NCBI RefSeq assembly: GCF_000165425.1
Contig: NW_001798967.1
Span: 469,657-533,656 of the forward strand
DNA: 64,000 nt
DNA from: Paramecium tetraurelia
Taxonomy: Eukaryota > Ciliophora > Oligohymenophorea > Peniculida > Parameciidae
Direction of reading: 5' to 3'
In this document: in pieces, positions 25,791 through 27,332 of the stretch
Layout of the letters: each line of letters opens with the position of its first letter
How positions within the stretch are numbered: the first letter of the stretch is position 1
Notes under the pieces: model-generated
What the model saw: the letters and a program-made list of their open reading frames with translations, nothing else
The model's database searches: none
Told to the model about the DNA's origin: nothing
Translations under genes and position numbers: made by a program

Positions 25791-27332
<1,542 letters not shown>

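Follow-up and report, generated by a model that had tools for sequence, protein, structure and literature searches.

Mammalian thioredoxin reductases 1 and 2 (TrxR1/2) end in a Gly-Cys-Sec-Gly tail, which they share with the gene described here, and to our knowledge their stop codon is not UGA, so that two readings of one codon do not meet in them at such close quarters. In Tetrahymena, the sole stop codon UGA was also found to encode selenocysteine (Sec), and TrxR was among the genes concerned (PMC2612030). Since this precedent is published, the double use of the only stop codon is not unique to the TrxR of Paramecium. The same dual use of UGA was inferred for Ichthyophthirius (PMC3341644) and for Oligohymenophorea sp. 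PL0344 (PMC10553269), both of which possess a tRNA-Sec, and in Condylostoma and Parduczia the codon was described as having three meanings, namely Trp, stop and Sec (PMC4967479). As for RNA structures close to the Sec codon, human SelS carries a stem-loop that starts 3 nt into the 3′ UTR, 9 nt past the UGA, and that must lie close to the codon to promote the insertion of Sec (PMC3628699).

The gene considered here lies in a window of 64,000 nucleotides (the whole stretch of Paramecium tetraurelia DNA that was analysed) from a genome of 69 Mb, in which frames were read through TAA and TAG and ended at TGA. This code, the short introns, the size of the genome and its duplicated genes are in keeping with Paramecium. 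It very probably encodes a selenoprotein TrxR of a ciliate with UGA as its only stop, in which SECIS-driven Sec insertion would take place at the first of two terminal UGAs and termination at the second. The sequence itself shows the homology to TrxR, the conservation of the tail, a SECIS core whose helix covaries and the greater part of the Sec machinery.

The reductase gene and its double-TGA end

The TrxR/TGR-type thioredoxin reductase gene occupies positions 25791..27332 of the plus strand and is interrupted by two short introns, one of 25 nt at 26033-26057 and one of 26 nt at 27241-27266 (plus strand), its spliced translation having 496 residues with Sec495. From the ATG at 25791, the spliced frame is open when TAA and TAG are read as Gln, an amino acid for which 11 TAA, 3 TAG and 1 CAA but no CAG codons were counted. 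Exactly two in-frame TGAs were found, both at the end of the gene, where positions 27321-27332 read TGC TGA GGT TGA in frame, as the initial annotation had reported. The two TGAs had been placed nine bases apart, which needs correction: their starts are separated by 6 bases, with one codon between them, and nine is the span of TGA GGT TGA. In protein numbering, the C-terminus consists of Cys494, the first TGA as residue 495, and Gly496. The first TGA (27324..27326, plus strand) is read as Sec495 on the evidence of its alignment column in 1zdl_A, the paralogues and the downstream SECIS core; the second (27330..27332, plus strand), one Gly codon past Sec, is read as the true stop, at which homology with solved TrxRs ends and which is kept in all four TrxR-type paralogues.

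Homology to TrxR/TGR extended over the full length of the protein. The model TIGR01438 (NCBIfam, thioredoxin and glutathione reductase) matched at 642.5 bits, the cut-off being 475.85, and the best PDB match, obtained with Cys substituted at the Sec position, was 1zdl_A (Thioredoxin reductase 2), to which query residues 4-496 aligned up to the chain end with an E value of 2.4e-167. In this alignment the first TGA, read as Sec in a UGA-coded Gly-Cys-Sec-Gly end, fell in column three of the GCCG with which 1zdl_A terminates.

The genome contained nine related reductase genes at 43% identity or more, a count that leaves out the more distant C223 and C208, which have 30-32% identity, together with a split gene at C24:27665-31505. 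Four of the nine ended in TGC TGA GGT/GCT TGA, namely the window copy (C14) and those on C200, C24 and C56, the last of which has TGC TGA GCT TGA instead. The other five (C221, C215, C187, C192 and C134), whose ends were read by eye, lacked such a tail and ended in the manner of glutathione reductase. The C14 and C200 copies were identical at 479 of 497 positions, with a dN/dS of 0.037; TrxR is under purifying selection. The C56 gene showed a Gly-Cys-Sec-Ala end, with its SECIS core 63 nt past the Sec codon and without the post-stop hairpin described below. The split TrxR/GR-like gene on C24, located only a few kb from the C24 TrxR, was read in part and its end had no such tail. In the window itself, the reductase gene adjoins a thioredoxin-like gene, its convergent neighbour at 27725-28726 on the minus strand, whose product combines a thioredoxin domain (PF00085, 42.3 bits) with a TPR_20 segment (PF14561, 26.6 bits).

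SECIS elements, Sec machinery and other candidate selenoproteins

In agreement with the UGAN/KGAW rule for the SECIS core (PMC7409322), a core was located in the 3′ UTR at 27459..27499 (plus strand), composed of ATGAN, an 11-bp helix (27463-27473/27486-27496), AAA in the apical loop, and TGAA. A strict descriptor of this arrangement, applied to both strands, matched only here in the window and gave five distinct matches in the gathered loci (503,964 bases over both strands, overlaps included), of which four fell one each into the 3′ UTRs of the UGA-TrxR genes and the fifth lay on the minus strand of L058, a specificity that is flattered because the descriptor was composed after the elements had been seen. 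A relaxed descriptor found four matches in the window (128 kb on both strands), one of them that of TrxR. The features of a type I eukaryotic SECIS, that is, the UGAN/KGAW core, a helix of about 11 bp and apical adenines, were present in all four paralogues, at distances of 132, 132, 118 and 63 nt from the Sec UGA (132 in C14 and 63 in C56).

Independently of the descriptor, across the four paralogues, 95% of 40 cells of the core helix were paired and 7 of 10 pairs had changed on both sides, a covariation score reached by none of 500 shuffles and by no slid register, although the four rows are not independent, C14 and C200 being close copies. The element is carried by a long basal helix (27392..27542, plus strand) in the minimum free energy (MFE) fold; this helix has 34 bp in four runs, between arms at about 27392-27431 and 27503-27542. 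The fold also contains an accessory hairpin (27432..27455, plus strand) of 9 bp with a loop of 6, set into the 5′ side of the internal loop of the SECIS. A three-way-junction SECIS shape appeared in the MFE folds of all four TrxR 3′ UTRs, and since 55-116 of 500 flank shuffles qualified by the same definition, the accessory hairpin and the junction are suggestive only. The fold of 27321-27640 as a whole had z = -6.5 against 100 shuffles.

Over its initial 228 nt (27333..27560, plus strand), the 3′ UTR was identical to the C200 copy in 199 of 235 columns, compared with 132 of 184 fourfold sites for the same pair (Fisher p = 0.0016), whereas in the next 80 nt (27561-27640) only 52 of 81 columns were identical, not better kept than fourfold sites. 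The Rfam model SECIS_1 (RF00031) had no match in the TrxR 3′ UTR (27200-27800) nor genome-wide; the genome-wide result shows little, as 0 of 14 prokaryote controls matched either. Six other Rfam matches were obtained on 27200-27800, all under their gathering scores, and one of them, NsiR1, which fell on the post-stop hairpin, was judged to be due to chance.

The Sec-decoding set of tRNA-Sec, SepSecS, eEFSec and SPS was found in the genome. The tRNA-Sec, at C88:80276-80362, scored 64.3 bits against a gathering score of 47, which none of the other 15 matches exceeded; ARAGORN designated it tRNA-SeC(tca), with anticodon TCA. SepSecS was found on C200 (555.8 bits, cut-off 224.85), eEFSec domain III on C55 and, in two pieces, on C34, and SelD/SPS on C162 as two exons of 104.9 and 89.1 bits, each under the SelD whole-protein cut-off of 125. 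A run of N lies beside these SPS exons, and one stretch of the gene is seen on either side of it, possibly an assembly artefact. The PSTK candidate was weak, with 24.2 bits, and 33 bits to TIGR03574, whose cut-off is 290.5. The initial annotation had named tRNA-Sec, eEFSec and SBP2 as the components to look for: the first two are present, while SBP2 was not recognised in the 25 places read of 36 with an L7Ae domain. These 25 resemble eL30, eS12, eL8, NHP2 or SNU13. Taken with the tail and the paralogues, the SECIS core in the 3′ UTR lends support from sequence to the proposal, already made in that annotation, that the first TGA encodes Sec in a Gly-Cys-Sec-Gly tail.

Further candidate selenoproteins were observed in the Rdx family, in which three of eight places had TGA at the CxxU position. 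These presumably represent two SelT genes (YCTS-U-SYK) and one SelW (YCGG-U-GYKP), with an in-frame TGA at loci L072 (C224), L074 (C6) and L076 (C195). The relaxed SECIS scan was positive downstream of all three and of none of the five other Rdx loci; the strict descriptor recovered two of the three, missing the SelT of L072. Glutathione peroxidase was rejected as a further selenoprotein, as none of its six gene loci had TGA at the active site, and so was SPS, whose motif LKGCGCK identifies a Cys form. TrxR, SelT and SelW are candidate selenoproteins, which would add one more ciliate genome with such a set.

A hairpin adjoining the second TGA

Immediately after the second TGA, a hairpin was found at 27333..27359 (plus strand), with arms of 11 bp (27333-27343 and 27349-27359) and the loop TTAAT (27344-27348). 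In the window copy it starts 6 nt past the Sec TGA and 0 nt past the stop TGA; in C200 the Sec UGA and the stem are again 6 nt apart, and in C24 the distance is 9 nt. Fold energies of the 35 nt past the true stop were -21.9 kcal/mol for C14, -22.5 for C200, -15.1 for C24 and -0.3 for C56, so that the hairpin is kept in three of four paralogues and missing from C56. These values were compared with the folds after 11,380 distinct TGA triplets, taken in any frame and on either strand of the window and gathered loci (mean -2.1, sd 2.1). The top six places were taken by the folds after the Sec and stop TGAs of C14, C200 and C24, with C14 and C200 far beyond the rest and C24 stronger by no more than 0.1 kcal/mol than the next TGA, an unrelated one (-15.0). 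Among 136 ends of open reading frames (ORFs) of at least 250 codons, the strongest post-end fold was -8.7.

A stable stem-loop that begins 6-9 nt beyond the Sec codon and is shared among relatives, of the kind represented by the SELENON SRE and the SelS stem-loop SL1, is found in three of the four paralogues. The hairpin loops differ across the three genes (TTAAT, TCTTT and GAAAGA), and among the pairs compared, from which the innermost was left out as MAFFT had split it, 1 of 10 had changed on both sides and 2 on one side, a level equalled or exceeded in 162 of 500 shuffles and not significant with three sequences. The bacterial SECIS is characterised by a bulged U in the stem and by a loop in which neighbouring G and U are unpaired (PMC8704476); the hairpin was rejected as an element of this type, its three loops being without the required features and its folds without a bulged U. 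Past the Sec codons of the other candidates no such hairpin was found, the values being 0.0 and -1.5 for the two SelT genes and -1.5 for SelW. Since the hairpin is absent from C56, both SelT and SelW, Sec does not generally depend on it.

At the first UGA, the 3′ UTR SECIS together with eEFSec and Sec-tRNA(UCA) would redefine the codon as selenocysteine, and the resulting Gly-Cys-Sec-Gly tail would be redox-active. The ribosome would then read one Gly codon, and eRF1 would terminate at the next UGA, as is to be expected from what is established for selenoproteins. We infer both Sec insertion itself and the way in which the two UGAs are distinguished. Two identical codons at nearly equal distance from the SECIS, with opposite expected outcomes, make local context the likely discriminator. 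The hairpin directly past the true stop, a new element here that the initial annotation did not mention, may have a role in telling the two UGAs apart.

By analogy with SelS SL1 and the SELENON SRE, there is an even chance, in our estimate, that the post-stop hairpin promotes Sec insertion at the first UGA but has been opened by the time the second is decoded. While the first UGA occupies the A site, the hairpin would stand 6 nt downstream, where it may pause the ribosome and favour Sec. The mRNA channel of the ribosome is long enough that, once the second UGA has entered the A site, the 5′ arm of the hairpin would already be within it and unwound; the stimulus would then be gone, leaving eRF1 to terminate. 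A stronger form of this proposal, which we regard as rather unlikely, holds that the hairpin serves as a positional ruler giving one codon two meanings within nine nucleotides: the 6-nt spacing would stimulate Sec, and an advance of two codons would open the stem, the identical UGA thereby reverting to a stop. If so, single-stop ciliates would have solved the conflict between Sec and stop in a C-terminal selenoprotein with a 3′ UTR hairpin whose spacer consists of a sense codon plus the stop, a hairpin working together with a long-armed SECIS that bears an extra hairpin. What tips the ribosome towards Sec or towards termination is difficult to study in isolation, and the post-stop hairpin offers a specific candidate element.

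It is also possible, with a probability that we place somewhat short of even, that the SECIS alone suffices and that the hairpin has another job, such as mRNA stability, 3′-end formation or that of a spacer, with no part in UGA discrimination. The C56 TrxR, both SelT genes and SelW, which have SECIS-like elements without the hairpin, agree with this, as do the TRs of Euplotes, in which the SECIS can confine Sec to the C-terminal region (Turanov et al., PMC3737529). Such a C-terminal restriction alone would not necessarily separate codons 6 nt apart, however, and the hairpin lies at 6-9 nt, the spacing of the SELENON SRE and SelS SL1 (PMC3628699), and gives in three paralogues the strongest post-TGA folds sampled.

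Alternative readings of the first UGA and comparison with known systems

In a further alternative, the first TGA would be a real stop and the second a tandem back-up stop, so that the enzyme would end in Gly-Cys. UGA tandems are indeed over-represented in single-stop ciliates, including Paramecium tetraurelia (PMC6879139, PMC10553269). However, TGA stood at codon +2 in only 1 of 150 ORF ends (mechanical ORFs of at least 250 codons from the window and gathered loci, not annotated genes), yet in 4 of 4 TrxR-type paralogues, each time after TGC, so that the double TGA exceeds chance. This triplet also occupies the C-terminal GC-x-G column of solved TrxRs, a SECIS core lies downstream in all four genes and most of the Sec machinery is present, all of which makes the tandem stop very improbable. 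The incorporation of another amino acid at the first UGA, either Cys or Trp through a suppressor tRNA or near-cognate reading, has parallels in Condylostoma, where UGA encodes Trp (PMC4967479), and in Euplotes, where it encodes Cys (PMC3737529), but is more improbable still, given that TrxR has no further in-frame TGA, that catalytic-position TGAs and SECIS elements occur together in TrxR, SelT and SelW, and that a tRNA-Sec is present.

The preferred reading, a selenoprotein TrxR with Sec at the first UGA and termination at the second, can be set against the systems introduced above. Tetrahymena thermophila, with three selenoprotein TrxRs that have putative SECIS elements, is alike in its sole-stop UGA, 3′ UTR SECIS and tRNA-Sec (PMC2612030). 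SPS2 and two glutathione peroxidases are putative selenoproteins there (PMC2612030), whereas here SPS is a Cys form and none of six peroxidase loci has TGA at the active site. A hairpin beside the TrxR stop is not mentioned in the passages of that source consulted here (PMC2612030). Among the matches listed in the open-licence literature, mostly titles and abstracts, there was no selenoprotein TrxR of Paramecium, no hairpin at the stop of such a gene and no hairpin spacer that encloses a stop of the same codon. The TrxRs of Condylostoma magnum and Parduczia have, as here, a C-terminal Sec UGA and a SECIS in genomes where UGA is also a stop; they differ in that UGA also encodes Trp and that the Sec codon comes shortly before the SECIS (PMC4967479), compared with 63-132 nt here.

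With regard to the hairpin, the SELENON SRE is a stem-loop that likewise starts 6 nt past the Sec UGA, but it is situated inside the coding region (as cited in PMC3628699 and PMC8704476), whereas the hairpin described here lies wholly past the stop. Human SelS SL1 (PMC3628699) is similar in standing at the head of the 3′ UTR in the message for a protein with a penultimate Sec, 9 nt from the UGA compared with 6 or 9 nt here, and its function has been demonstrated, while that of the Paramecium hairpin is proposed by likeness. The human SelS gene stops at UAA (PMC3628699), whereas the stop enclosed in the Paramecium spacer and the Sec codon are one and the same triplet.
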